Origin: Pomphorhynchus laevis
Lineage: Eukaryota; Acanthocephala; Palaeacanthocephala; Echinorhynchida; Pomphorhynchidae
NCBI GenBank assembly: GCA_012934845.2
Contig: WNNJ02001166.1
Location: 1 to 64,000, forward strand
DNA: 64,000 nt
Direction of reading: 5' to 3'
In this document: positions 1,200-51,430 of the stretch, piece by piece
Numbering within the stretch: the first letter of the stretch is position 1
Layout: each line of letters starts with the position of its first letter
Notes under the pieces: model-generated
The model's input: only the letters and a program-made list of their open reading frames with translations
The model's database searches: none
Told to the model about the DNA's origin: nothing
Program-made: the position numbers and the translations under genes

Positions 1200-4100
1200 T
1201 TCGAATTTAAAAGAAGACGATTTTCAAAGCGAAGAATCAAATTAAAGATTTCCTGCAAAGAAATATTAATATGTGATGAGGTATCGGAATAATTAGTTTT
1301 GATATATATGTCATTTTCTTATAAAGGAATTGAAAGGGTCCGAAAAAGATATGATTTTAATGCGTCATGCTTTATGCAGGTAAAAATGCAGTTTTACTTA
1401 TTTTTTAGATTTTGTTTAGATTTTACATTTTAACTCATTAACAATTTTACATTACTTCAATTTTCTGGTTAACACATTATTTTTTATGTAACTTATTTAT
1501 GCAAGAAATCAAAGTTCATAAATTTTTAAAACATTTATGAAATTTAAAACAAAAGATCACTCCGTGACAATAATCACGTATTTTTAATGTGGTGCTTCAT
1601 TGAATTTTTGGAGCAGGATCAAACAAATTGTAACTTTTGTAAAAAATTTTGTAATTTCAAGTTTTATTTTTTGTAACTTCAAAAGTTGTTAAATTATTGG
1701 AGCTGGATCGAAGAAAAGAGAAAATTCGTTATTGATATTTCTCTAAGCTCTCTTAGCATAATCAGAAAATTACAAAATCAGCTTTAAAATAAACTGAGTT
1801 CCAATTCCATTTCAACAATTAACTAATTAATCTGTGACTTTTGCTGTGTTATTTTTTGTTAGTGCTCATGTAAGCGTGCAGTTGTCATGCATTTGCCACG
1901 TTAAATAAATTATTATTATTTTATACGAGTTAAAAAATAGCATTACATATATCGGAGCAACAGAAGTACCTATCCTGTGCCTTTCTTATGTCTAAAATTA
2001 ACTCCATTAATCAGATCAGATAACTGAGTCTACGTATTTTATACTTTATATAAATCAAAAATAAAGATAACAATAATTAAAGAAGATTTTATATAATTTA
2101 TATTTATATCAAATTAAAATTTTAAATAAAAATCAATTTTTATGTAGTTTTTATGCTTGTAGTTTTTTGAATTAAAACAAGTTTTTTCGAATTTACATAA
2201 AAATATTTATCTGCCATCTTCTTATTACATTTTAAGAGAAAAGTGAGAGAATTCCATGGGAACTCGTTTATATATCAATATGGCAGCCACGAAATAATAG
2301 ACAAAACGATAACTAGTACCGTTTCGTCGTTGTTTTGACTCAAATGTGACAGGTACCTTCCACTACCGGATGCAGATGAGGACCGGTTAACGGCACGAAT
2401 ATGCGCTGGCATTAGTCAGTGCTCTTAGCTAATGATCATTTTGGTGAAGCATGTAATACTTAGATTGATGGAGCATGCCTAGCTCAATGTATATTTTGAC
2501 ATACTCGTGCCGTCTGCCGGTCCTCCTCTGCATCCAGTAGTGGGAGGTAGCTGGCACTGATGAGTCAAAACAATGACGAAACGGTACTAGTTATCGTTTT
2601 GTCGATTCTTTAGTGATTGCCACATTGATATATAAAAAAACTTCAATTTATTGGTTATAGCTATAAGTTAAAATGTTTAATAGAATGAATATTTCATAAA
2701 ATGCGATGATAATTAACTATGAAGTGTATTATTTTCAAACATTCGTATACATTTTATTATCAATCGGTTTTCCGTGGTATGCTAGATTCCGTGATATGCC
2801 AAATTTTTCTATATGAAAAAATATGTGGTACATATATTGTTTGTACCATATTATATATACATATATACGTATTATATATAATATTATATAATAAAACTAA
2901 TAATATAATTTTATAATATTAAAATATTAAATATTAATTATAATATATAACATAAGCCTAATATATGGTACATATTATATGGTATATAATATGTACCATA
3001 TTATAGTACTATGTGCATATCAAAAACTAATACACAATTTAGGGTATATTATGCTTCTCACGATAATGAAAATTCTAAAGTATTCGGGTACTTTGCCGAT
3101 GCCGACCATAAGGCGCAGTTACAATGCAATGTATTTAAGGCAGATCGAGAGGTATCGGTAAAGAGCCAAAGTAAATTAACACTAACATACATATATATCA
3201 AGTCTCAGGCAAATTCGATTGTACAGGAAATCGGTAGATGTTTCGAAATATTCTATTTAGCAAGAATATCAGTAAATCCAAAATGCGAACGAGAGAAAGG
3301 TATATTAACAACAATTTATATTAGTAAATCACGTTTGTATGCAGAATTGCCTTTCAAAAAGAATTTGTCAAATACGTCATCAGGATACGATGAGGACAGT
3401 GATGAGGTAAATACTGTTGATATCTTTATTTACTCTAATAATTTTAAGAAATGTAAATAATTATTCATTTAGAAGATATTGAAATATCAATAATTAAGAT
3501 GTCTTAAAATATAATTTTACTTTCCATAGATAAAATATAATCTGTAATTTTTATTTTATCAATATTTATAAAAAATATTTTTAATCAATGGTTTTATAAT
3601 AGCAGAACAATAATATTTTTATAATAGCAAAGATAATCTAAATATTCCAATGTTTTGAAATTTGAATTCATTTAATTAAGCATATTCTACGACAATGTTT
3701 TAAAATAATTTGCTTTCATAACATTTTATTGTGAATACGATTTTTAATCTATTTTAGTAACTAAATTTAAATTATAAAACGAGCTTTTTGATTCAAATTT
3801 GAATAACTATTTAATAACAATATTTCACTCAGATAATCGTAATTGAAACTGTAATTACAAGCTTTTAAATTAAAAGCTGTAATTTCACTCGAGGCAGAGA
3901 ATATGAGAGGAACAAATTAATATAACAAGAAATAATCTCATGTAATATTCATACACACATTTTTAAAAAGAACCAAAAAACTCAACAAGATAAAAAGTTT
4001 TTTTTAGATTTAATAAATATTTTCGAATTTATAAAATTTATAAATATTATTTAATATTTATTCAATTAATTATAAATAATATTAAATAATTAATTTAATT

Positions 4101-13015: not shown

Positions 13016-13864
13016 GGTGTTGAGGACTCTGCTTATCACTAAATTTATTTCCGCGTGTCTGAAGAATCTGACTCGAAATTCTGCATGCTAATACGCCATG
13101 CTAATGGTGTCTTTATAAACCAGCTTTATCTTTATCTTCATAAACCAGAGGTGTTATATCTTTCTATCTTACTTCCTTATTTAAATTACTGTTCTGATTA
13201 ATTAGAACTGATGTCATCTTCTTTCGCGTATAATCAATGCTTTTTATAATTCGCCATACCGTCAATGATTAGGATGAATATGTAACATGCCCACTGTAGA
13301 CAATGAGCTTTCACATATTAATTTGATATTAATAAATGAATATTGGCACAAATCTCAAAAACTATTGTATTTTTTCATATGAGAAATCTTTCTTCGTAGT
13401 TTTCTTATTTTCAGACGCAGATTTAAAATTCAATAAATCTTGAAACTCCCCATCCAGGTATCGTTTAAATAATCTTTTAATTGTTCTAAGACAAATTAAG
13501 TAAACATTTCTAATAATGAGACATCTCTTTGTAATAATCAAAAAACATTCAATTATTTTTTTTGTTATGGGCCGCCTGGTTTTCGTCCTAGTGTCTCCAG
13601 TTACATTATCATCCAGTTCTACTCTATATCTTCTTGATTTAATTACATTTTTAGGGGTAATAGATTAAAATATTTACCTAAATAAAAATATAACTATAAA
13701 AATGTAAAGGGTTGTAATTGGCTACTATTTTTGGCTACAATTTGTAATAATCCAAAAAAAACAAGCTGCTTCCACAACTTTTTTACTTATTTGTATCATC
13801 TTATGTAGTGATGTTATAATGTGGTCATATTATGTGGGTTTCATTACATCATAACTGTGGTGAG
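13016..13864. other. Interval without a supported gene
   Basis: AT-rich sequence with no convincing frame, repeat or RNA gene between the RT-tail fragment and the 22-nt tandem repeat. Confidence 0.3.
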
Positions 13865-13930
13865 GAACTACGACCACTAAGGGATGGAACTACGACCACT
13901 AAGGGATGGAACTACGACCACTAAGGGATG
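13865..13930 (+). repeat. Perfect tandem repeat, 3 x 22 nt
   Basis: Three identical, directly adjacent copies of a 22-nt unit built on GAACTACGACCACTAAGGGA, then TG. The absence of differences between copies suggests recent expansion. The interval 13931-14515 has no supported gene. Confidence 0.85.
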
Positions 13931-32602: not shown

Positions 32603-32645
32603 ACAACGAGGAAAATAAAATCACGAATCAAACGACTATATACAA

Positions 32646-34043
32646 ATGGGTCGGAAAAAACAAAAGTCTCAAGTTCCCAACCATGTTGCGTCCAACACCG
32701 ATGTTAGAGATGTTTCCAATGGATCTGAACAACAAGTCCTTTGCTCAAACAATGATTGTCACACGTGGGTAAGTATTTGGACTTCAGAATCCCAGGCATC
32801 TTGCCTTGCAGACAACGAATTCTACTGTGGCTACTGTTCGGCTAAGATGATAAATACGATGAAGAGTGAAATAGAGAATCTCAAGACAAATATATTGAAA
32901 CTATCTGGCAATGCAGCGATGTCCACACATGCCTCTTCGTATTATAATAAGTCTCAACCTCGATGCCCAATTCTCCCGCATTCGATTGCCTCTAAGAATG
33001 CCAAATCTCCCATCTCTTCTACAGGTATTACTATACATCCTTCAATTTTGCCCAATCAATCAGCTCAATCTTCTGATGTTACTGTCATTGACCATTTGCA
33101 ACCCAGTATTTCTTTTGTCGTATCAGATAAATCACCTTACATTTCTACCCCTCATTGCGTTTCTACGTCATCATCAGATAATCCATTATCAGATAATCTG
33201 AAGGAGCCGCAAATTGTATCGCAGCAAGATGGATTTTGTCGAGTTTATGATAAATCTACCGATACAGTGACGGAGCCGCAAATTGTTACAACTAATGTAT
33301 GTTCACTCCCCGACACCCCACGTCCCGTCCTTCCTGTCTCGTTTCTCAATAACTTGCATCCATCAATCAAAATCACCTCCACCAGCCTCCACTATCCTTC
33401 CACTCATAACCTTTCCTCACATCGCTTGCCACCCGCTTTATTATCATTATCCTCTATGTCTCCCGTCGTCAAACCAAATCCCTCCAAATCATCAACTGCC
33501 AGCTCTTCTATCGTGATCTCACCTACTCACGTCAGTCGTCCTCCTTTACGGAAGCGCTTTGCTTCTCGCGATCGTTGCGTCATTGTTACTAATATCACGC
33601 CTTCTAACTCCTTATCTCCACAAGCACGTCTGGACCACGATGTTTCCGCCTTCAGATCCATCCTCTCGTCTATTGTTCCTGCGGATAAACCATCCTTTTT
33701 CAAGGACATTTCTCCAGTCGCATTCATCCGTCTAAACAAATCTTCTCAATCTAATCCTTCCCAGCCCCCTCTCCTAAAAATTGTTTTCAAGCATCGCTCT
33801 CACGCGTCTTCTGTCCTCTCTCAACGATTCAAACTCATGTCATCTTCAACCACTCGAATTTTCCCCGATCGCGCCCCTTCCGAAATCGCTCAAATCTCTT
33901 CAGCCCGCATCGAAAAACGTCGTCGCGAGGAAAACGGCGAAACTTCACTCGCCATCCGAAACATAGACGGAAATTTTCAAATTGTCCACACCCGTCCAAA
34001 AATTCGATGGCGCTCCATCTCTCCTATGTGTCTTCTCCACTAG
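32646..34043 (+). CDS. CR1-A ORF1 protein (PHD-like finger)
   Basis: 465 residues. A basic start (MGRKKQKSQ) leads into a PHD-like zinc finger at about 33-62: CSNNDCHTW, then C-L-A-D, then FYCGYC. A coiled-coil-like stretch follows (MINTMKSEIENLKTNILKL). A long Ser/Pro-rich region of about 200 residues comes next, and a conserved C-terminal block: RDRCVIVTNI, SIVPADKPSFFKDI, then RIFPDRAPSEIAQ. The ORF1 proteins of CR1-B and CR1-C share this plan. Such proteins bind element RNA and act as chaperones. The ORF overlaps ORF2 by 37 nt in another frame. Confidence 0.85.
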   Translation: MGRKKQKSQVPNHVASNTDVRDVSNGSEQQVLCSNNDCHTWVSIWTSESQASCLADNEFYCGYCSAKMINTMKSEIENLKTNILKLSGNAAMSTHASSYYNKSQPRCPILPHSIASKNAKSPISSTGITIHPSILPNQSAQSSDVTVIDHLQPSISFVVSDKSPYISTPHCVSTSSSDNPLSDNLKEPQIVSQQDGFCRVYDKSTDTVTEPQIVTTNVCSLPDTPRPVLPVSFLNNLHPSIKITSTSLHYPSTHNLSSHRLPPALLSLSSMSPVVKPNPSKSSTASSSIVISPTHVSRPPLRKRFASRDRCVIVTNITPSNSLSPQARLDHDVSAFRSILSSIVPADKPSFFKDISPVAFIRLNKSSQSNPSQPPLLKIVFKHRSHASSVLSQRFKLMSSSTTRIFPDRAPSEIAQISSARIEKRRREENGETSLAIRNIDGNFQIVHTRPKIRWRSISPMCLLH

Positions 34044-36904
34044 TCTCTTTCGCCACAGCACACGGTTTCCGCCTCGGTCTCCTCAACACTAGATCTATTC
34101 TCAATAAATCCGATCTTATCCTCAACCTATTCACCAAGCAATCCATCGATCTCTTCTGCCTCACCGAATCCTGGCACTCAGATTCCGACGACCTCTCCAT
34201 TCGCCGTCTGCTCTCTGCCGGTTGCTCCCTAGTCGAATCCGCCCGCCCCCTCAGCTCATGCCCTTCTAAATCCTCTAATCATGGCGGCATCGTCGCATTC
34301 GCGCGTCACCCAGCGTCTCTTCGCAAAATCAATCCCCCTTTCAGTCCTTGCTCTTTTGAATTGCTCACTTGTCGTTATTCTAACCCGATCACTCTAGATC
34401 TCGCCATTGTATACCGTCCTGGTTCATCAGCTCCTACAGCCTTATTTTTTACCGAACTCGCTGACCTCCTTTCTCATTGTTCTTTGTCCTCAATCCCTTC
34501 ACTCGTTCTAGGCGACTTCAATATCCGCCTAGACCGCCCCTCTTCCACAGATTCCATCCGCTTCATCAACATTCTATCCAACTACAATTACAAACTAATC
34601 TCCACTGCCCCCACACATATACTTGGCGGGGCACTCGACATCATCGCTGTCCCCGATCATTTTGCTGCCCACACCTCACTGTCCATCTCTGATCCTGGTC
34701 TATCCGATCACTTTCTTATCACCCTTGATCTCGCTCGCAACCACACCCCTCCTCACACACCTACAATCCTACGTCGCCCTTGGAGAAATCTTGACCTTTC
34801 CCTTCTCCGCTCTGCCTTACTCAAATCGTCTCTATCATTACCCACAATAACATATTCATCTCCTCACGATCTCGCCTTTCTTTTCGACTCTGAACTCACA
34901 TCCACTCTCGATATTCTCTTGCCCTTCAAGTCTCACCCACACCGTCGCTTGCACCGTGCCCCATGGTTTGACATCCAATGCCTACTCTCAAAGCGTCGAC
35001 TCCGCCATGCTTTTCGAGTCTATCACCGCTCTCTCAGACGCGATTTCCGCTCGATCACTCCGTCTTTCCGTGATTCCTATCTTGCTCTTCGCCGGTCTCA
35101 TCTCAACCTACTACGTACCAAATGCAACTCCTTCTGGCAGCATAAAATAATCACTTCATTCAACTCTAAGACTCTCTGGCATACTTTTAACTCAATCCTG
35201 GCTCGTTCCTCTACGCCTTGCAACATCAATGCTAATGATTATTCGTCATTTCTCCAGACTAAAGTATCCACGCTGCTCTCTCACACCCCGGTCTCCATCC
35301 TATCCCACTCTGCCCAGTCTACTCTCATCCTTCCCGAACTCTTTCATCTTCTCCCTGTATCACCTACAGAAGTATCATCTGTCCTCATGTCCTTGCCCAA
35401 CAAAACCTCACCTGCCGATCCCCTGCCTACCCACATATTAAAATCTATATGCTCATCGATATCCCCATTTCTCACAACCTTGTTTAACTCGTCCATCCGC
35501 AGTCGTATCTTCCCTTCACACTGGAAATCCGCAATCGTTCGTCCCCTCCTTAAGAAACAATCGCTCGACCCCTCCCTTCCTTCTAGCTATCGCCCCATTT
35601 CACTACTCCCTACTCTTTCTAAGCTCTTAGAACGCCTCATCTTAATACAAATCAACGCTTATCTCTCCTCATCCAATCTGTACCCTCCTTTCCAATCCGC
35701 TTTCCGCTCTAATCACTCGACAGAAATCGCATGCATAAAAGTGTACAACGACTTACTCATTTCTCGAGACAAGGCTCTATATAGTGTTCTCATCTCCCTG
35801 GACCTCTCCTCCGCATTCGACATTGTCGACCACTCCGTCCTCCTTTCTCGCCTTCGTTATGATTACGGCTTTTCTTCCTCCTCCGTAGCTTGGTTCGCCT
35901 CATATCTATCCGACCGTTCCTTTCGCGTCTGTTCTAATTCATCATCCTCCCCTCCCATCCCTATTTTTTGCGGGGTTCCACAAGGTTCAGTCCTAGGTCC
36001 CCTGCTTTTCTCTCTTTTGCTTGGCGATCTCTCTCCATTTATCAAACCTTACTCCTTTAACGTCATGCAATACGCCGATGACATTCTAATCTATGCTCAT
36101 GCACCCGCACATCGCATACACGACATCGCCATTTCTGCCTCCAACTGTCTCTCTTCTATCTACAAGCGTCTCTCCAATCTCCATCTCGTTCTAAACGCCG
36201 AAAAGTCCAAAATAATGTGGATCCTTCCCCGTAAACCAAGCATATCTCCTCCCATTGTATCTTTTGCCTCATCGATCATCCCTGTAGTCCACAATCTCAC
36301 TTTCTTAGGCTTCCATTTCGATGATCACCTTTCCCTTAAACCCTTCGTCCGTGACAAGGTCCGCTCGTCTAACTTAATTCTTCGTGACATCCGCCGTATC
36401 CGCCCCCTTATCGACTTCCGTTCTTGTATGTCTCTTCTTTCATCGCTTCTTTTTCCTAAAATCGATTACTGCCTTAGCCTTTTCGCCAATTCTCCAAAAT
36501 CCATCATCCTACCCCTACAACGAATAATCAACACCGCCGTTCGAGTGCTCTTTCGCCTCCGTCGCTTCGACCACACATCCACATATTTTGCCCAACTCTC
36601 CTGGCCCACCATCCACATCCGCATCAAACTCCGCCTTCTTCTCATTACTTTTCGTCTCATCGCTGTCGGCTCCCCATCGTTCATCAACCTTCCTTTCTTA
36701 GACGATACTCGCCCCACCTCGCTATCGCTTCGTTCCTGTCATACCCTCTTACTCCACGTTCCTAATTACTCCAACAACTACGGTCTCCGATCCTTCCTCG
36801 TCGCCGCCTCACTCGCCTGGAATCAACTCCCTCTCGACGTCCGCCGCGCTCCCTCTTTTATCACATTCAAACACCTCCTCCGTTCACACCTTCTCGACGC
36901 CTGA
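34007..36904 (+). CDS. CR1-A ORF2: endonuclease-reverse transcriptase
   Basis: 965 residues, uninterrupted. The APE endonuclease occupies about residues 20-240, with LLNTRSI, LTESWHSDSDD, AIVYRPG, LVLGDFNIRLD and LSDHFLI. The RT occupies about 480-760, with SSYRPISLLPTLSKLLE, ISLDLSSAFDIVDHSVL, CGVPQGSVLGPLLFSLLL, the catalytic MQYADDILIY, and LNAEKSKIMW. A thumb and a tail with SPSFINLPFLDDTRP follow. It nicks target DNA and reverse-transcribes the element RNA. All catalytic residues are present, so activity is possible. The start ATG lies inside the end of ORF1, implying reinitiation or a similar mechanism. Confidence 0.92.
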   Translation: MALHLSYVSSPLVSFATAHGFRLGLLNTRSILNKSDLILNLFTKQSIDLFCLTESWHSDSDDLSIRRLLSAGCSLVESARPLSSCPSKSSNHGGIVAFARHPASLRKINPPFSPCSFELLTCRYSNPITLDLAIVYRPGSSAPTALFFTELADLLSHCSLSSIPSLVLGDFNIRLDRPSSTDSIRFINILSNYNYKLISTAPTHILGGALDIIAVPDHFAAHTSLSISDPGLSDHFLITLDLARNHTPPHTPTILRRPWRNLDLSLLRSALLKSSLSLPTITYSSPHDLAFLFDSELTSTLDILLPFKSHPHRRLHRAPWFDIQCLLSKRRLRHAFRVYHRSLRRDFRSITPSFRDSYLALRRSHLNLLRTKCNSFWQHKIITSFNSKTLWHTFNSILARSSTPCNINANDYSSFLQTKVSTLLSHTPVSILSHSAQSTLILPELFHLLPVSPTEVSSVLMSLPNKTSPADPLPTHILKSICSSISPFLTTLFNSSIRSRIFPSHWKSAIVRPLLKKQSLDPSLPSSYRPISLLPTLSKLLERLILIQINAYLSSSNLYPPFQSAFRSNHSTEIACIKVYNDLLISRDKALYSVLISLDLSSAFDIVDHSVLLSRLRYDYGFSSSSVAWFASYLSDRSFRVCSNSSSSPPIPIFCGVPQGSVLGPLLFSLLLGDLSPFIKPYSFNVMQYADDILIYAHAPAHRIHDIAISASNCLSSIYKRLSNLHLVLNAEKSKIMWILPRKPSISPPIVSFASSIIPVVHNLTFLGFHFDDHLSLKPFVRDKVRSSNLILRDIRRIRPLIDFRSCMSLLSSLLFPKIDYCLSLFANSPKSIILPLQRIINTAVRVLFRLRRFDHTSTYFAQLSWPTIHIRIKLRLLLITFRLIAVGSPSFINLPFLDDTRPTSLSLRSCHTLLLHVPNYSNNYGLRSFLVAASLAWNQLPLDVRRAPSFITFKHLLRSHLLDA

Positions 36905-39702: not shown

Positions 39703-41289
39703 TCATATGTTCTCTGACTCGATCTTCGTCTTCAAGAAGGGATCTTCCTCCAGATTTCGTTTAAAAGAAGCCAGATTCGAGGATGCTACTGTTGTGTCAG
39801 CAAGGTGGTTCCAAGTATTAACGATTCGTTGGAAGTATAGGGATGTTCGTTTGTAGCGTAATCGTTGTGTTTTTAGCATGAACTGATGACCACGAAGTGA
39901 GGTTATATCGCGCGTATGCATTAGCGATCTGAGTGGATGGCGATTGTCGTGTAAAATCTGCCAGGCTAGGCACAGGTCCGCCTTGTCGCGTAGATACTGA
40001 AGCGATCTCATTCCCAAACTCGAGAGCCGATCTTGATATTCCATATGTCTAACCGCTTTTACCATTTTAGTTGCTGATCGGAATACAGACTCTAGATTAT
40101 AACGTTCTCGTAAGGTGATTGGGTAACAAGCTGGCGAAGCATATAGGAGGATGCTCAAAATAAGTGCTTGTGAGATTGTTTTAAAGCATGAGATGTCAAT
40201 ATGAACAAGAGCTCGGCGAATCAGGCCGATGACTCTTCTCACTTTGGAACATGTAGTGTCAGTATGTAAACGTGTCGATAAGTTAGAACATACATAAACA
40301 CCTAAATCCCTGTATGAGTTCGTCCTAAGAATAACACTGTTGTTTATATGATAAATATGAGCTGACTCGGCCGGACGTCTTGATATACAAATGTAGGCAC
40401 ACTTTTTCAAATTGAATTTTAACCCGTTCAAAATCGACCAGTCATTTATGGTGTTAATATCATACTGCAAGATGTCAACATCTGAGTCCAAGAATATGGG
40501 GCGCCAAATTTTTAAATCATCAGCATAAAGAACACACTCAGATCTAAGTTTAGGAATGAGGTCGTTAATGTATATGCTGAAAAGAACTGGACCGAGTATA
40601 GTTCCCTGAGGTACTCCAAGATTTGTAGGGAAGCGATCAGATAATTCGTCGTTTACCCTTACGAAGCAATGACGGTCAGACAGAAATTCAATAATCCAGC
40701 GAACTAAACACTCATCAAGGTTGATATTACGCAGTTTTTGAATTAAATTAGCATGAAGGACTGTATCAAATGCCTTAGAGAAGTCGAAGAAGATGGCGTC
40801 AACCGGAATACCAGAATCATAATATCTGGTCCAGCTATCGTGTGATAACAACAAATTCGTTAGCGTTGAATGATTTTTTCGAAAACCATGTTGTTCAGGG
40901 GCTAGAATATGGTTCGTTTCTAGGTGAGTGGTGACTTTTCGCAGAAGTAAGCGTTCCAGTACGCGACAGCAGACACATGTGAGGCTAATCGGTCTGTAGT
41001 TACAGATGTCAGAACGAGACCCCTGTTTTAATATTGGGCAGATAATAGAGCGCTTCCAGTCTGAGGGAATCTTTCCTAGCACAAGTGTTGCACAGAAGAT
41101 ATTATATAGAGGTAGGTATATGATGTCAGCTAGGTTGCGAAGATATGCTGACGGCAATAGATCCGGACCAGCACTTAATGTGCATTTCAGACGGGACAAC
41201 TCGCTGTACACTAAGTCAGGTCTAATGAAGTTATCAAGGTCAGAAGTAGTATTAGCTACCAAACAATACAAACTGTCAGTTTGGAGCAT
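39703..41289 (-). CDS. CR1-B ORF2, reverse transcriptase half
   Basis: 528 residues covering the whole RT: LKCTLSAGPDLLPSAYL, NYRPISLTCVCCRVLERLLL, IFFDFSKAFDTVLHANLI, LGVPQGTILGPVLFSIYIND, catalytic LYADDLKIW, FNLKKCAYICI and a C-terminal tail (LRGHQFMLKTQRLRYKRTSL). All catalytic residues are present. It overlaps the endonuclease frame by 14 nt in a different frame, so either one indel or ribosomal frameshifting separates the halves. An indel is the simpler reading. Confidence 0.88.
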   Translation of the reverse strand: MLQTDSLYCLVANTTSDLDNFIRPDLVYSELSRLKCTLSAGPDLLPSAYLRNLADIIYLPLYNIFCATLVLGKIPSDWKRSIICPILKQGSRSDICNYRPISLTCVCCRVLERLLLRKVTTHLETNHILAPEQHGFRKNHSTLTNLLLSHDSWTRYYDSGIPVDAIFFDFSKAFDTVLHANLIQKLRNINLDECLVRWIIEFLSDRHCFVRVNDELSDRFPTNLGVPQGTILGPVLFSIYINDLIPKLRSECVLYADDLKIWRPIFLDSDVDILQYDINTINDWSILNGLKFNLKKCAYICISRRPAESAHIYHINNSVILRTNSYRDLGVYVCSNLSTRLHTDTTCSKVRRVIGLIRRALVHIDISCFKTISQALILSILLYASPACYPITLRERYNLESVFRSATKMVKAVRHMEYQDRLSSLGMRSLQYLRDKADLCLAWQILHDNRHPLRSLMHTRDITSLRGHQFMLKTQRLRYKRTSLYFQRIVNTWNHLADTTVASSNLASFKRNLEEDPFLKTKIESENI

Positions 41290-42664
41290 TCAGTGACGAA
41301 TTCAGCGATGTTAAGTGTGTGCCGAATACATTCGCAATTTCCTTTGAGTCCAATACCAAATAACCTTGGCTATCGAGAATAGAGGAGAACGTGTTAGCTA
41401 TACGTTTTCTTGATGAAATGTATTTGAAGAGTGAGCCAGGATCACGACGACATCGTTGGGATAAATTCTTTTCAAAGATTACTCTCGTACGTCTCTTCAA
41501 GGATGTTACCCTGTTTCTATACTGTCGGTATTGCTCAAAACTAGAGTTACCTGCTTTATAATTACAATATGCCTTGCGTCGTCGAGCCAGTGCTTGTTTG
41601 AGTTCTCGATTAAACCAACGAGGAGATAAGCCGACGTCAGTTTGACGTACAATTGGAGCGTAGCGGGTAAGTATTGAATACAAGGTGTCTTTGAAAAACA
41701 GCCAGGCGGAATCAATACCCACAGTATAAGCATCAGGCCACGAAACGGTAGAAAGGAACTCCTTTATTTTGTTGTAGTCGGCTTTAAAAGGGTTGAATCT
41801 ATTAACAAAGGAATTATATATAGGGATACTAATTCCAAGATCTATTAATAAGGTGACATGATCAGAACAACCAACTGGATCCAAGTGATTAACGCTAGTG
41901 ACAATATGTCCTGGAGCAGACAAAACCAGATCAAGAAGAGAACGAGACGTAGAAGATATTCTGGTAAATCCATTGACATGTTGGGTAAGGTATAGATCAT
42001 TGATTGTTTGAAGTAACACAATCGAACCAAAGTCAGACGGCGAATTAAAACTGTATGTATTCCAATCTATTGTAGGCATGTTAAAGTCACCAACAACCAA
42101 TATTGGCTTATTAGGGTCCGATAGCTGGTATAAACGTTGCACGATGCTATCAGTGCATGAAGTAGGGCTGCGGTAAACGACTACAAGTATCAAGGAGAAT
42201 GGCCGGTATAATCTGACCGCTAAAAGTTCGTTTGAAGTTAGGGGGTCGTTAAAAGTTTCTACGACACGGAACTTTATTGTGTCACGTATATATAGTAATA
42301 TACCACCACCCTGTTTAGCTATTCTATCGCTGCGGCACGCATTATATCCTTTCAACAAAATTTCATTATCGGAGATAGAAGGGTTTAGCCACGATTCCGT
42401 AAAAGCTGCAATTATCGGTTGATGGTCGTGAATCAGTAATCCAATCTCATCAATTTTATTTAACACACTACGCACATTAGAGTATAGAATTTGGTGGGAA
42501 GCTTTGTTTATTGTACATCTAGATGACGAACTCTTTTGAGTTCCCGACTTGAACAAGGCAATAGAGTTTCTTATGAAATTTTGGTAGATGCACTCTGTAG
42601 GCATGCGGTCGGCGTCGGAGCACGCTGGGAAGCAATATTTGCTTTGTTCAAAAGACCTTGCCAA
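41276..42664 (-). CDS. CR1-B ORF2, endonuclease half
   Basis: 462 residues. The APE endonuclease has ILYSNVRSVLNKIDE, AAFTESWLNPSISD, GGGILLYIRD, LVVVYRSPTSC, ILVVGDFNMPTIDW, LLDLVLSA and CSDHVTLL in order. A linker follows (SPRWFNRELKQALARRRKAY, then CRRDPGSLFKYISSR). The frame ends at 41276, just before the RT fingers, where the RT frame takes over. Confidence 0.85.
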   Translation of the reverse strand: MARSFEQSKYCFPACSDADRMPTECIYQNFIRNSIALFKSGTQKSSSSRCTINKASHQILYSNVRSVLNKIDEIGLLIHDHQPIIAAFTESWLNPSISDNEILLKGYNACRSDRIAKQGGGILLYIRDTIKFRVVETFNDPLTSNELLAVRLYRPFSLILVVVYRSPTSCTDSIVQRLYQLSDPNKPILVVGDFNMPTIDWNTYSFNSPSDFGSIVLLQTINDLYLTQHVNGFTRISSTSRSLLDLVLSAPGHIVTSVNHLDPVGCSDHVTLLIDLGISIPIYNSFVNRFNPFKADYNKIKEFLSTVSWPDAYTVGIDSAWLFFKDTLYSILTRYAPIVRQTDVGLSPRWFNRELKQALARRRKAYCNYKAGNSSFEQYRQYRNRVTSLKRRTRVIFEKNLSQRCRRDPGSLFKYISSRKRIANTFSSILDSQGYLVLDSKEIANVFGTHLTSLNSSLNAPN

Positions 42665-43872
42665 CGGATGTGGAGGCGCCGCCGCACTACCTGAAAATTC
42701 TGAATTGTTAGGTTGTTTTCACCATGTGCCAGTCTTTGAGCTAGTTCCGATTTTGCCATTGATAAACGTGTACGATCAGCGGGGTCCAGGTCTCTAAGAA
42801 TACGGGTGCCGGAACCTTTCAGGTGAAATGAGTTACGATGTATGAGCTGCACAATTTCACATGAAGTAAACACAATTTTGAGGAGGCGTGGTCGATCGTT
42901 GACGGACGAAGGAGCACGACCTAGCCGGAAGACAGCTTTGAGACGCATATCTCTCACAGCTTCACAAGATGATGATCCATTTAAGACAGTCGTTAGAATG
43001 GATCTGACATGTATTAAGTCATCATCAAGTCTGGCCTGATTGTTTAGGGCATCGGACTCCTTAATGTTAGCAATTAAAATGCATTTGTTTCTATCACAAA
43101 CAGCATTTGAACGGGGTCTGTTTGAGCAACCAGTACTATGTACAAGGGTACGATTGTGCTTTTCGTGAAAATCATTAATACAATCTACCTTAACAGGTTG
43201 CGTGTTATGAGATAGTTGGTTTATACGAATTGCGGGAGTTTGCGATCTATCAAATGACCGGGTATGCAAAGTTTTGTCGTTGTTTATAGCCGTTTCAGTC
43301 ATATAACTGGTCGGTCGTATTACAAGAGGCACACCATTGTTAACCGAAACCGTCTGTTCGCCAATATTCTTAGACATATTTTGATCTCTTCCGGGAATGT
43401 CATCACAAAAAATCGATTGGTTGCAAACAGTATGTCGAACAGTATCATTTGATTGGCTTGTAGAACGATTTGGAACATGACGTGACACTGAGTCTAGCTG
43501 GGCATATGAACTATTTGGTGATGGTAGCCTGTTACCCGTTAGCAACGAACATACTTGTCTCTGAAGTTCGAGAACGTTTGTCTGTAAAGTAGCTGCGCAA
43601 AATCCACAAATAAAATCTTTATCAAGGAAATTGACAGGTAGTTGACGTGGTATCCACACAGTGGTCCAAACAGGACATTGTGAATTAGAACATTTAATGT
43701 CACGGTGACTACTTCCGTCTGTAGATGATATGTCCTGGGAGATATCAACAGAATTGGCCTGCAAGGCTTGCTCGTCTTTGGACCGACTTTCATGTTGTCT
43801 TACTGAACGCTCACTGTCATCATCTCGCTTAGAAGGAACAACAGCTGCTTTACGTGGTCGACCTCTTGTCAT
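42571..43872 (-). CDS. CR1-B ORF1 protein (PHD-like finger)
   Basis: 433 residues starting MTRGRPRKAAVV, an AT-hook-like basic start. A PHD-like finger follows: CSNSQCPVWTTVW, then FLDKDFICGFC, then a coiled-coil-like helix (LQTNVLELQRQVCSLL). The C-terminal conserved block includes NKCILIANI, then LIHVRSILTTVL, then FRLGRAPSSVNDRPRLLKI, then TRILRDLDPADRTRL. It is homologous to the ORF1 proteins of CR1-A and CR1-C. It overlaps the ORF2 start by 94 nt. Confidence 0.85.
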   Translation of the reverse strand: MTRGRPRKAAVVPSKRDDDSERSVRQHESRSKDEQALQANSVDISQDISSTDGSSHRDIKCSNSQCPVWTTVWIPRQLPVNFLDKDFICGFCAATLQTNVLELQRQVCSLLTGNRLPSPNSSYAQLDSVSRHVPNRSTSQSNDTVRHTVCNQSIFCDDIPGRDQNMSKNIGEQTVSVNNGVPLVIRPTSYMTETAINNDKTLHTRSFDRSQTPAIRINQLSHNTQPVKVDCINDFHEKHNRTLVHSTGCSNRPRSNAVCDRNKCILIANIKESDALNNQARLDDDLIHVRSILTTVLNGSSSCEAVRDMRLKAVFRLGRAPSSVNDRPRLLKIVFTSCEIVQLIHRNSFHLKGSGTRILRDLDPADRTRLSMAKSELAQRLAHGENNLTIQNFQVVRRRLHIRWQGLLNKANIASQRAPTPTACLQSASTKIS

Positions 43873-43989
43873 TTGTAATTTCGTTCCTCGTTGTTTTGTG
43901 TTCCTCGTTTGTATTTACTTTAGATCTCAAATGTAAGTAGTTTATTAAGCAGCCAAGAAAGTTCAAATTAAATTTTAATTATTAAATGC

Positions 43990-47974: not shown

Positions 47975-49484
47975 TTGACACAACAATCGATAGCAAGAAC
48001 AAAGAAGACAGAAACGAAAAAATGCTTAGCAAGTCAGCAGATTAACGGTACCCGCAATCAGACTGTACCAAAATTAGCAAACCCCTCCTCTGGGTATCAG
48101 CAACGCGAGGTCTCTTGCAGCAGATCTGGATGCGAAATATGGACAACTGTCAACGTTACATCTTGTCTGACGAAATCGCTACTGTCTATGGATTTTGTTT
48201 GTGGGTTCTGTGCCTCCGAATTGCTCTCCTTGTTGTTCAAGGGTCATTGTGACGAGCAAGTATCAATAAATACTTTAAAGAGGAACGCAGATTCAAACAG
48301 TCACAACGATGGGGAAGATCATAGTATTAACGAACCAGAACGGAGTTCAGAAGCGTTCAGACAGTCAAGCAGCTCGTCGTCAGGGGATTGATGATGTTTC
48401 GGCCACTCCAAAATCATCTGAGATAGGAATTAATAATGCTATTCATGTATTCAATCATTCTCTCACGCAGCAGTCGAAGTTAGAACTGAACGATCGTTCA
48501 ATCATACCCTTCAATAACAATTCAACTCAATGCTTCGTTAGGGATGCATTGCATGAGACTAATGTGATGGATTACTCCTTCAAACAACTTCCTGTTTTGG
48601 ATTCTATTGTTCATCCCCATATATTGGACTCGAGCAGCGTCGGTCTTGATGTAGATGACAAATGTTCCGCCCTCAAGCATGCGAATGTTTATTTGTCAAC
48701 TCCTGTTAACACCTCCTCGGGCAGTGATTGTTCTCAAAACTGTCCTCTAGGTAGTGATTGTAGTGAGCGTCCTTGTGCTTACCCGCAGCTACTGCATCCC
48801 CGCTGCAGTTTATGTGTTGCTCTAGTAGCCCCGTTAATTGAGAGCGTTAAGGATCTTGCAAAGGCTAGTCAGATTATAGTTAGGCCAATAGATAATCTAC
48901 GACAAATAGTAAGCCTTTTAAATAATAAACAACATGCAGTGATTCCTCCAAATCATCGACAGCCATCGATTACCCCTGAGACTCATTCTTCATTAGTTCC
49001 GTCTGCTAGCCCTAAATAATTTAGCTCTAGACAATTTAACTCCAGAAGAGAGTTAAACGTTATCGTCAGCGGTGTTGAAGAATCTCTCAGTAACAATCCC
49101 CAAAGTAGACTGGATGACGATATTATGCATCTTCGCGCAGTGTTTTCTAAGATTTTTCTCCAGTGCGATGTGGATGTTGCGAAGTGTCTTAAAGTTCGAA
49201 GAATTTTTCGTCTAGGCAAGAAACTTTCAGATAGACCTAGACTTCTAAAAGTTGTTCTAGACTCAAAAGATCATGTTGACTTCCTACTCAAGCATGCATT
49301 TAGATTATCGCGCTCTGATTTTCATATACTCCGTGATTTATCTCCTGCAGATCGTTTGAGAAGACACGAGGCTTTCAACGAGCTGCATCGACGGCTGGAA
49401 AGTGGTGAGGGCAACCTATGTGTACGGAATTTTCGGGTGGTCAAGTGGCGTCCGACTGTCCGGTGGCATCCCTTACTTCTGTAG
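47975..49484 (+). pseudogene. CR1-C ORF1, frameshifted
   Basis: The PHD-like finger frame (CSRSGCEIWTTVNV, then FVCGFC) runs 47975-48391. The protein continues in another frame at 48309-49019. After a stop it resumes at 49020-49484 with VIVSGVEESL, FRLGKKLSDRPRLLKVVL and FHILRDLSPADRLRR. It overlaps ORF2 by 67 nt, as in the sister elements. Confidence 0.75.
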
Positions 49485-50407
49485 AGTCAGACCTCTTTAG
49501 TAGTGATGGTTCGTGTGTAGGAAAACTAGTAGACTTCGATAGTGTCACCGAGCGTGTCAAATTTTCCCATTATACGAACATTTTTGTCGGTTATTCAAAT
49601 GTTCGTAGTCTCCTGGCTCAGTTCTCGGAAATTAAATTCATAGTTGCTTCGAAACGTTTTGATGTATTTTGTATAACCGAAACATGGCTACATTCTGACA
49701 TTTCGGATGACTGTGTTGCCATCCCTAACTATTTTCTAATACGTTCGGATCGCTCATGTGGTAAACGTGGAGGTGGGGTAGCCGCCTATGTGCGAAATAG
49801 TCTCCTGGTATCGAATATCTCGGCTTTTCGCGACGATATTGGTTATTCCTTTGAAGGTCTTGCTTTTACACTGGGAAATGGTCAACGATCCCGATTCTGC
49901 GTCCTTTACCGTTCTCCGTCCTATGAATTAAGATTTGACTCTCTTAAATCACATTTGCTGAGTTTATCTTCGTATCCTCTGATTTTGCTCCTGGGTGACT
50001 TCAATATCCCCCAAATAGACTGGAAAAATAGTCATTCACGACCAATTCACGGAATTGGGAAAGTACTGAGTGACTTTCTGATACTCGAGATGCTACTAGT
50101 TCAACATATTAAAGAACCTACTTGTGTGACAGGGACGCCTTCTATACTCGATTTGGTCTTTACTAAGTGTTTGGGTGACGTTTCAGGTGTTCGTTATGAC
50201 GCACCAATTGGCAATAGCGATCACTGTGTACTCTCTATGCGGCTGTCGCTGTTCAACAGAGCCTCACAAAACTCTAATTTTAAAAAACGTTGTTGGGTAG
50301 GTGTTGATGCTAGTCAACTAGCTGCAAGCTTCCCAAAAGGTATCTGTGATAGTCTTCGTATCCACTTCGGTTTGGAGGTTCCTGTAGCCTTTGATGTCCG
50401 ATCCTGA
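49418..50407 (+). pseudogene. CR1-C ORF2, endonuclease
   Basis: Endonuclease blocks GYSNVRSLLAQFSE, FCITETWLHSDISDD, RGGGVAAYVRN, FCVLYRSPSY, LLLGDFNIPQIDW, ILDLVF and GNSDHCVLS are all present. After a short tail the frame ends at 50407, where an internal deletion joins it to the RT. Confidence 0.8.
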
Positions 50408-51430
50408 AGCCTTTGATAGGGTACCACACGACGGCATAGTGTCTTTACTGTATCACTATGGACTTCATTCATATATTTGTGAGTGGGTCAGGGAATTTCT
50501 ATCGAATAGGTCTTTCCGAGTTTGTGTGGGGGGGGCGTGTTTTCTTATTCGGTAAATATTAATTCTGGCGTACCGCAGGGATCAGTCCTTGGCCCACTGC
50601 TCTTTATAATCTTCATTAATGATCTGCTACTCCGCCTATCATGCTCTCATCTAGCGTTTGCAGACGATCTAAAGATTTGGTCGATCATTATAAGTCCTGC
50701 TGATCGAGTATCGTTACAAAATGATCTAAACTCCCTGATCAAGTGGTGCGATTCTACCGGACTACGGTTGAATGTTGATAAATGTGTCCTCATGCAACTA
50801 GGTCGCCCTATTAAAACTCTAAGGTACTTTATTGGAGATATGGTCTTAAAGGAAGTGTCTCATCATAAGGATTTAGGGATTATTGTCCATAGATCCTTGA
50901 AAACAAAGTTGAACACCGACTTCTTTTTAGGTAAAGCTACTAGGGCGTTATATTGTATTAAAAATGCATTCCTCAGGTTAAGCTGTCACATGTTCAAGAG
51001 GTTATTCATCTCCATCGTCAGGCCACACTTGGAGTACTGCATTCAGGCTTGTTTCCCTGTCACTAAGCAAGAACTATTAGACCTGGAGTCTATTCTTAGG
51101 CGCGGATCGAGGCTCTGTATTGGCTTAAGTGATATTGACTATTATGTACGTCTAAGTCGTATTAGGATGTTGTCGATACGTGAGAGGTTCATATCCTTGG
51201 AAATGCTATGTATATGGCATATGTCGAATGATATGGTAGGTTATCCCACCGATGTAATCACTAGGCGGGTAGATCAGTTGCGGGGACATAGCAGAGTCTT
51301 GTATAAATTTGGATTTGGCAGATTACCAAAAGTGTATAGACTCTCAAGGAGAGGAATTAACATGTGGAATTCGTTGCCTGAGGAAGTCGTTGCAGCCCCC
51401 AGTTTGAGAACGTTTAAATCACGATGCTAG
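50408..51430 (+). pseudogene. CR1-C ORF2, RT lacking the fingers
   Basis: Sequence resumes directly at the AFD motif (PEAFDRVPHDGIVSLLYHYG). The linker and RT fingers present in CR1-B are gone, about 0.7-0.8 kb. A run of eight G near 50526 shifts the frame. After it come NSGVPQGSVLGPLLFIIFIN, catalytic FADDLKIW, LNVDKCVLMQL and a tail with LRGHSRVLYKFGFGRL to the stop at 51430. Confidence 0.8.

Follow-up and report, generated by a model that had tools for sequence, protein, structure and literature searches.

Animal retrozymes are defined as tandem units of about 300 bp with type I hammerhead ribozymes. Penelope-like elements (PLEs) have been named as strong candidates for moving them (Cervera and de la Pena 2020, PMC7229834), given that both carry type I hammerheads, come in tandem copies and occur together (PMC7229834). 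Rotifer PLEs have head-to-head inverted pLTRs, one of which may bear an optional 31-bp tail (PMC3846280), as well as palindromes at the pLTR 5' end and target duplications of 8–10 bp (PMC3846280). Type III hammerheads occur mostly in plants (PMC7229834, PMC7761336), and scattered cases have been reported from bacteria, dipterans, termites and HDV-like RNAs (PMC7936874). Type III hammerhead elements in insects have also been mentioned, with reference to earlier work and to a paper in preparation (PMC7761336). The published draft genome of the acanthocephalan Pomphorhynchus laevis comprises about 260 Mb and is about 63% repetitive (PMC7310846), with PLEs making up about 15% of the TE content (PMC7943196).

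We analysed a stretch of 64,000 nucleotides of P. laevis DNA (contig WNNJ02001166.1, positions 1 to 64,000; hereafter the window), in which a hammerhead motif of type III is part of a dispersed repeat. We consider it probable (roughly 0.7) that the hammerhead serves as processing ribozyme to a tandem retroelement of about 300 bp that is non-autonomous, an animal retrozyme of unusual type III form that is moved by PLE machinery. Judged by its sequence, the family appears to combine an animal retrozyme body with a type III ribozyme and PLE-like ends, which is new as far as the literature examined goes. A limited search found no literature on hammerhead ribozymes in Acanthocephala, and no description of a type III retrozyme in animals was found in the literature examined; an earlier description is possible. 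The finding bears on the question of what mobilises animal retrozymes and how such elements spread in animals.

The P. laevis family resembles metazoan non-LTR retrozymes in its low-GC tandem units of about 300 bp with a hammerhead, present both dispersed and in arrays (PMC7229834), and in target duplications of more than 4 bp where these are present (PMC7229834). The tandem units of 150–450 bp, the low GC content and the dispersed distribution of metazoan retrozymes were all found. Unlike in metazoan retrozymes (PMC7229834), the hammerhead is of type III rather than type I and has a bulged, extended stem I, and the insertion ends carry a PLE-like tail. Because of its hammerhead type, we regard the family as a retrozyme variant and not as a standard member. 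The type III hammerhead and its masking in the full unit are shared with plant LTR retrozymes (PMC4918200; described in PMC7229834), from which the family differs by a unit of about 300 instead of about 700 bp, by its low GC content and by its animal host (PMC7229834), and also by target duplications of 9–16 bp compared with 4 bp (PMC7229834). The predicted P. laevis circle would block the ribozyme, and such blocking is reported for plant but not for most animal retrozymes (PMC7229834).

Tandem and head-to-head repeats are likewise found in PLE pLTRs with minimal type I hammerheads (PMC3846280, PMC11167929, PMC7761336), as are the tail on one pLTR, the 5' palindrome, the target duplications and the placement of the hammerhead within the repeat (PMC3846280, PMC11167929, PMC7761336). 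In contrast to these PLEs (PMC3846280, PMC11167929, PMC7761336), no RT/GIY-YIG ORF was seen with the P. laevis units in the loci examined, and the hammerhead is a three-stem type III. The extended type III hammerheads of toad and termite HDV-like RNAs and of termite and dipteran genomes (PMC7936874) also come from animals, and share a long stem I composed of a short stem, an internal loop and an extra hairpin (PMC7936874). Their stem II has 6 pairs, whereas that of P. laevis has 4–5 (PMC7936874), and they occur as isolated motifs or in viral-like circRNA instead of in a tandem element (PMC7936874). The GCCR/YGGC pairing between loop I and loop II of HDV-like hammerheads was not seen by eye in the P. 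laevis alignments.

A hammerhead motif within an intron

The first-pass annotation had described a type III hammerhead with an intact core at 2503–2591 (+), and this description held: all core bases are present, the motif folds when taken alone, and random sequence yielded no match of equal quality. CUGANGA, GAAA, a UH at the cleavage site and three stems were found as expected for the hammerhead family, with stems I and II closed and stem III open, as in type III. In hammerhead numbering, U16.1 and C17 correspond to 2513–2514, CUGAUGA to 2557–2563, and GAA with A15.1 to 2578–2581. Cleavage is predicted after C17, between 2514 and 2515 (+), from the core layout and this numbering. In the fold of 2500–2594, the 5' strand of stem III (2507–2513) pairs with 2581–2587, the GAA, A15.1 and the 3' strand together occupying 2578–2587, and outer pairs of the same stem join 2503–2505 with 2589–2591. 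Stem I (2515–2556) has 6 pairs and, in the window copy, a 7th (U-G), followed by a bulged 10-pair extension and a loop. Downstream of the CUGAUGA core (2557–2563), stem II (2564–2577) comprises the 4 pairs GUCA/UGAC and the 6-nt loop AAACAA. The three-stem layout described earlier therefore stands, but stem II has 4 pairs instead of 3, and the extension of stem I is a bulged 10-pair structure and not one of 5 pairs.

When 2500–2594 (95 nt) was folded alone, mean pair probabilities were 0.972 for stem III, 0.961 for stem I and 0.948 for stem II, and a 106-nt piece around the motif had a folding z of -3.61. In 4.32 Gb of one strand of random sequence, generated from a first-order model of the window sequence, a type III descriptor gave 76 loose matches and none with stems as long as those of the window. 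On this sequence evidence, the window motif looks like a real self-cleaving RNA.

A search with the Infernal/Rfam hammerhead models had been proposed as a check, and the absence of a significant match had been set in advance as counting against the motif. None was found: the whole window gave no match at the gathering score, and the sensitive mode on 2000–3100 produced nothing beyond an HH9 match out of register (18 bits, E 0.23). The models (E up to 1) also found no hammerhead in L088, L092 and L033, which all hold intact copies, and they likewise missed the hammerhead-like motifs of PLEs. As intact relatives and PLE motifs are missed too, and as membership of the hammerhead family is not defined by matching a database model, we do not treat the result as decisive; it reflects the models more than the window motif.

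The element lies in an intron at 1380–3042 (+). The downstream exon alone matched the Pfam PTB/PID family with an E of 6.3e-5, and joining the upstream and downstream exons, with 1380–3042 removed, lowered this to 8.3e-9. Since the PID match improves on splicing, there is good support for the intron and for a PTB-domain gene on the + strand. The hammerhead had been reported in sense orientation within a NOS1AP-like intron; the intron, the sense strand and the PTB domain are borne out, whereas for an identity beyond the PTB domain a PDB search gave only a weak match to an LDL receptor adaptor (E 0.024). The window also contains a RAD54 frame, which is 100% identical to a P. laevis protein.

The element spans about 2204–2640, as delimited by nhmmer and by matches to the 305-nt ring on which units were mapped. 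An inverted partial unit (ring 1–200) at 2204–2403 (-), identified by ring mapping, nhmmer and alignment, forms the left arm of a foldback and contains a broken hammerhead with altered cleavage triplet and CUGAUGA. A direct partial unit (from ring 204 across the 305/1 junction as far as about 140) follows at 2398–2640 (+), and an imperfect palindrome at 2403–2422 (+), with the majority form GCGCTGGCATTAGCCAGTGC, lies near its 5' start, as seen from the sequence, the unit alignment and the insertion starts. The foldback arms, 2267–2403 and 2500–2636, are 86% complementary, and the family is dispersed, which confirms the earlier view that the motif sits in a small foldback and is not a conserved single-copy motif. 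As part of our preferred reading, and with the same probability, the window element would be one insertion made of a partial inverted and a partial direct unit, with an intact core that is masked by the foldback.

Long inverted arms are also in keeping with a DNA foldback or MITE element in which the motif arose by chance, a reading to which we attach next to no weight in view of the tandem units, the unequal ends and the random-sequence control. A host regulatory ribozyme that cuts the pre-mRNA of the PTB gene would fit the sense orientation and the intact core within the intron, but the motif is a member of a multi-copy element and is masked by the foldback, making this explanation highly improbable. 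The conservation of the motif follows from its membership of a dispersed element family, and not from the gene in which it lies.

A dispersed family of tandem units

The assembly searched comprises 249,390,268 bases. It contains at least 162 BLAST matches to the window element (40 of 1428 first-look candidates scored). A 31-base core had 76 exact matches in the genome and 509 matches at up to 3 mismatches, and the reversed control gave 0 in both searches. The core pattern CTGATGAGTC-N8-GACGAAAC, with 8 free bases, had 1,566 exact matches, again with 0 for the reversed control, and no match to the 31-mer was found in the viral sequence collection. An animal family whose core is matched exactly more than 1,500 times breaks the usual pairing of ribozyme type with host.

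We mapped 26 places on the ring, namely 25 loci and the window. Inverted and direct copies occur together, as head-to-head pairs, in 16 of these, and neighbouring same-strand units lie 297–310 bp apart, in head-to-tail arrays, in 12 (21 units); the remaining places hold single or partial copies. A second subfamily, B, is distinguished by the loop ATTGTGAT (40 of 1825 candidates scored, nearly all of them 98% alike over about 115 bp), and one of its arrays, at C196:243986-247041, has 11 listed cores at a spacing of 299–306 bp. At G000:C490:67002-68851, hammerhead copies are partly about 453 bp apart, corresponding to about 1.5 units. The window itself contains a 22-bp tandem repeat of three perfect copies at 13864–13930.

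Comparison of the majority A unit with one B unit showed that the hammerhead is 90% identical (70/78, 0 gap columns), and the rest of the unit 60% identical (123/205, 35 gap columns). When stretches of about 500 bp from three loci of subfamily C were compared with the A profile, the match was confined to some 79 bp that cover the hammerhead. Among 54 copies, the 11 core positions diverge from the majority in 5.4% of cells (32/594), compared with 10.6% for stems, 9.0% for loops and 9.1% for the sequence 3' of the motif; the core level was reached by 30 of 1000 random position sets.

Covariation was weaker. Within subfamily A, where 39 of the 40 references were aligned (L032:870-964, a near-duplicate of 361-455, being left out), the pairs do not covary (89.0% paired against 89.2% after shuffling), and RNAalifold returned no consensus structure for the subfamily A copies. 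This is as expected of copies that decay after insertion. An alignment between subfamilies contained 7 chosen A copies, 5 B and 3 C (14 distinct rows); the D-like copy L089, with a compensated stem II and, by eye, degenerate stems I and III, was left out. Here, pair-keeping changes on both sides occurred in 5 cells against 1.4 in shuffles, a level reached by 5 of 500. Pairs with change on both sides were not raised (2 against 1.2 expected; 175 of 500 shuffles), and neither were the covariation score (144 of 500) and the pair types (488 of 500). In total, one of five measures was raised and the other four were not. Conservation, more than covariation, marks the ribozyme in these alignments as an apparently kept module.

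Insertion ends and Penelope-like elements

The 40 outer 3' insertion ends are clustered on the ring, with 18 at 126–143, 19 at 160–200 and 3 elsewhere. One near end (126–143) is combined with one far end (160 or beyond) in 13 of 16 two-ended loci, leaving a tail of about 40 bp on one side; L044, L050 and L027 are the exceptions. At even odds this corresponds to a binomial p of 0.01, for end classes that were set after seeing the ends and for ends taken from BLAST. Direct repeats of at least 9 bp were found on the two sides of 6 among 24 insertions, whereas 552 mismatched pairs of flanks gave a rate of 1.3%; 18 of the 24 have no 9-bp direct repeat. These 24 loci exclude L023, a duplicate of L035, and L032, whose array reaches the contig end. 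Where found, target duplications are 9–16 bp long. In 5 of the 26 places (L035 and L023 being near-duplicates) the unit starts at ring 204–208, at the palindrome. The head-to-head inverted copy, the tail, the palindrome and the target duplications together reproduce the layout of PLE pLTRs.

Head-to-tail arrays with a near-constant period could also stem from a satellite DNA that spread through unequal exchange and carried the hammerhead along as a passenger. Dispersed insertions with target duplications (L041, L034, L049 and L035), the clustered 3' ends and the better conservation of the hammerhead than of the rest of the unit argue against this, and we judge it very unlikely. A LINE 5'-UTR ribozyme, comparable to the HDV-like ribozymes in R2, was considered since L035 and L049 have a LINE ORF1 after the unit. 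We dropped this reading, which now seems barely credible: these are only 2 mapped loci, the LINE pieces at L011 and L052 are placed elsewhere, and L023/L024 share the unit and 172 bp of 3' flank with L035 without the LINE. Long LINE-like frames, named by eye, occur in the window at 32619–36904, 39703–43914 and 48279–51430, one of them open over 1049 aa.

The genome is rich in potential PLE partners, with 14,691 first-look PLE RT candidates (150 scored), open frames of up to 908 aa and at least 75 GIY-YIG matches. No type III unit was found within 1.5 kb of the best 20 of the 75 listed GIY-YIG matches. Among 14 further RT loci, a type III fragment was seen in L077 only, as an insertion. None of the loci examined had an RT/GIY-YIG ORF bounded by type III units, and no autonomous partner was found among them. 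We therefore read the unit as non-autonomous and as using PLE enzymes, on the grounds of its PLE-like ends, the abundance of PLE genes and the lack of type III units at the 20 GIY-YIG loci. As the retrozyme-like insertions themselves bear PLE-like ends, and open PLE frames are numerous in the genome, this link is testable in vitro. A GIY-YIG frame beside L048 and an RT near L039 were rejected as partners, as their layout is not common to the other loci examined. In L077:1142-1570, a subfamily B fragment lies inside a PLE RT; judged by eye, about 148 bp of the RT itself are directly duplicated on either side of the fragment.

Alternatively, the unit may be the pLTR of an autonomous PLE that has a type III in place of a type I hammerhead, the short arrays being solo or tandem pLTRs. 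The tail, the palindrome and the head-to-head layout would all agree with this. Furthermore, of 51 subfamily C places, 5 have one of the 150 listed matches to a PLE piece within 3 kb. Even spread would give 0.18, an expectation that is too low since repeats cluster. C66, from which the query itself was taken, and C2484 each hold two of these places and C1685 holds one; the 51 places are those of 52 rows at up to 1 mismatch, one row with an A-type loop being left out. The A-type, however, lies within 3 kb of the same piece at only 1 of 76 places (0.27 expected), and no coding element bounded by units was seen. Moreover, at 9 of the 20 GIY-YIG loci (L056, L058, L060, L061, L062, L063, L065, L066 and L069) there are minimal hammerhead-like motifs of a different kind, which fall into two sorts and are separate from the type III family. 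By eye, we assign these motifs to the known type I of PLEs, although our own type I descriptor did not flag them. For the family as a whole we find the pLTR explanation unlikely, but subfamily C may itself be a PLE repeat, and its units at C66 may be the terminal repeat of a local PLE. At G000:C66:10500-13700 (L090, L094), subfamily C units are seen by eye among apparent truncated PLE RT pieces.

Competing folds and a proposed mechanism

The hammerhead fold depends on the amount of flanking sequence. It forms in the isolated 2500–2594, but in 2490–2610, with 10 nt more upstream and 16 nt more downstream, it is already displaced by another fold. In that piece a 12-pair hairpin at 2575–2603 (+) competes with the hammerhead core once the downstream sequence is added. 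Over the whole window element the pairing probability of the hammerhead is 0, because the inverted arms pair with each other: the foldback reaches -222.5 kcal/mol, compared with -138.2 with the hammerhead enforced, and is thus about 84 kcal/mol more stable. These models suggest that the window copy is probably silent, its ribozyme buried by the inverted arms. Cleavage of the host pre-mRNA at the window site, which the first-pass annotation had proposed, is not supported by these values and would be unlikely at equilibrium; co-transcriptional folding could differ.

In a single full A unit, the hammerhead is also buried at equilibrium. With 50–120 nt upstream, transcripts that end 31–38 nt past the start of CUGAUGA favour it, and those that end 60 nt or more past this point do not. 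If the upstream part is 200 nt long, even the 31–38 nt ends leave stem III at just 0.02–0.60. In the B unit the one combination that forms the hammerhead is 50 nt of upstream with 31 nt of downstream sequence, and stem III stays at or below 0.34 with 70–200 nt upstream. Shuffled flanks at full length also buried stem III (P at or below 0.01), in 2 of 100 cases for A and 23 of 100 for B, and in two shorter contexts they did so in 18–28 of 100 (A) and 37–49 of 100 (B). As shuffled flanks bury the hammerhead too, the modelling hints at best faintly that masking is a selected switch.

The motif, the family, the arrays and the insertion structure are evident from the sequence, and the following steps would connect them under a type III animal retrozyme moved by PLEs. 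Transcripts of an array would self-cleave at each unit, ideally during RNA synthesis. The resulting monomers of 300 nt, probably circularised, or else uncut multimers, would serve as template; the cleaved linear RNA is not obviously the template, as the insertions end elsewhere than at the cleavage site. A PLE RT with its GIY-YIG endonuclease would then reverse-transcribe the template into target DNA. Such insertion would leave units in tandem, a partial copy that is inverted and placed head to head, a duplicated target and the tail of about 40 bp on one side. Masking in vivo would presumably follow the folds described above.

A more tentative suggestion, and one that we would not favour over its negation, is that a type III (plant-type) hammerhead lineage entered the Penelope world in acanthocephalans. 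It would be a modular ribozyme that persisted as the remainder of the unit changed (A, B and C), and that drives retrozymes integrated by PLEs, some of them possibly the pLTR of an autonomous PLE. Its fold would permit cutting briefly during transcription and then lock the circle.

Two further near-perfect hairpins, one at 2962–3002 of the window and one at L033:800-928, scored far below the cut-offs of miRNA models and were taken as chance structures.
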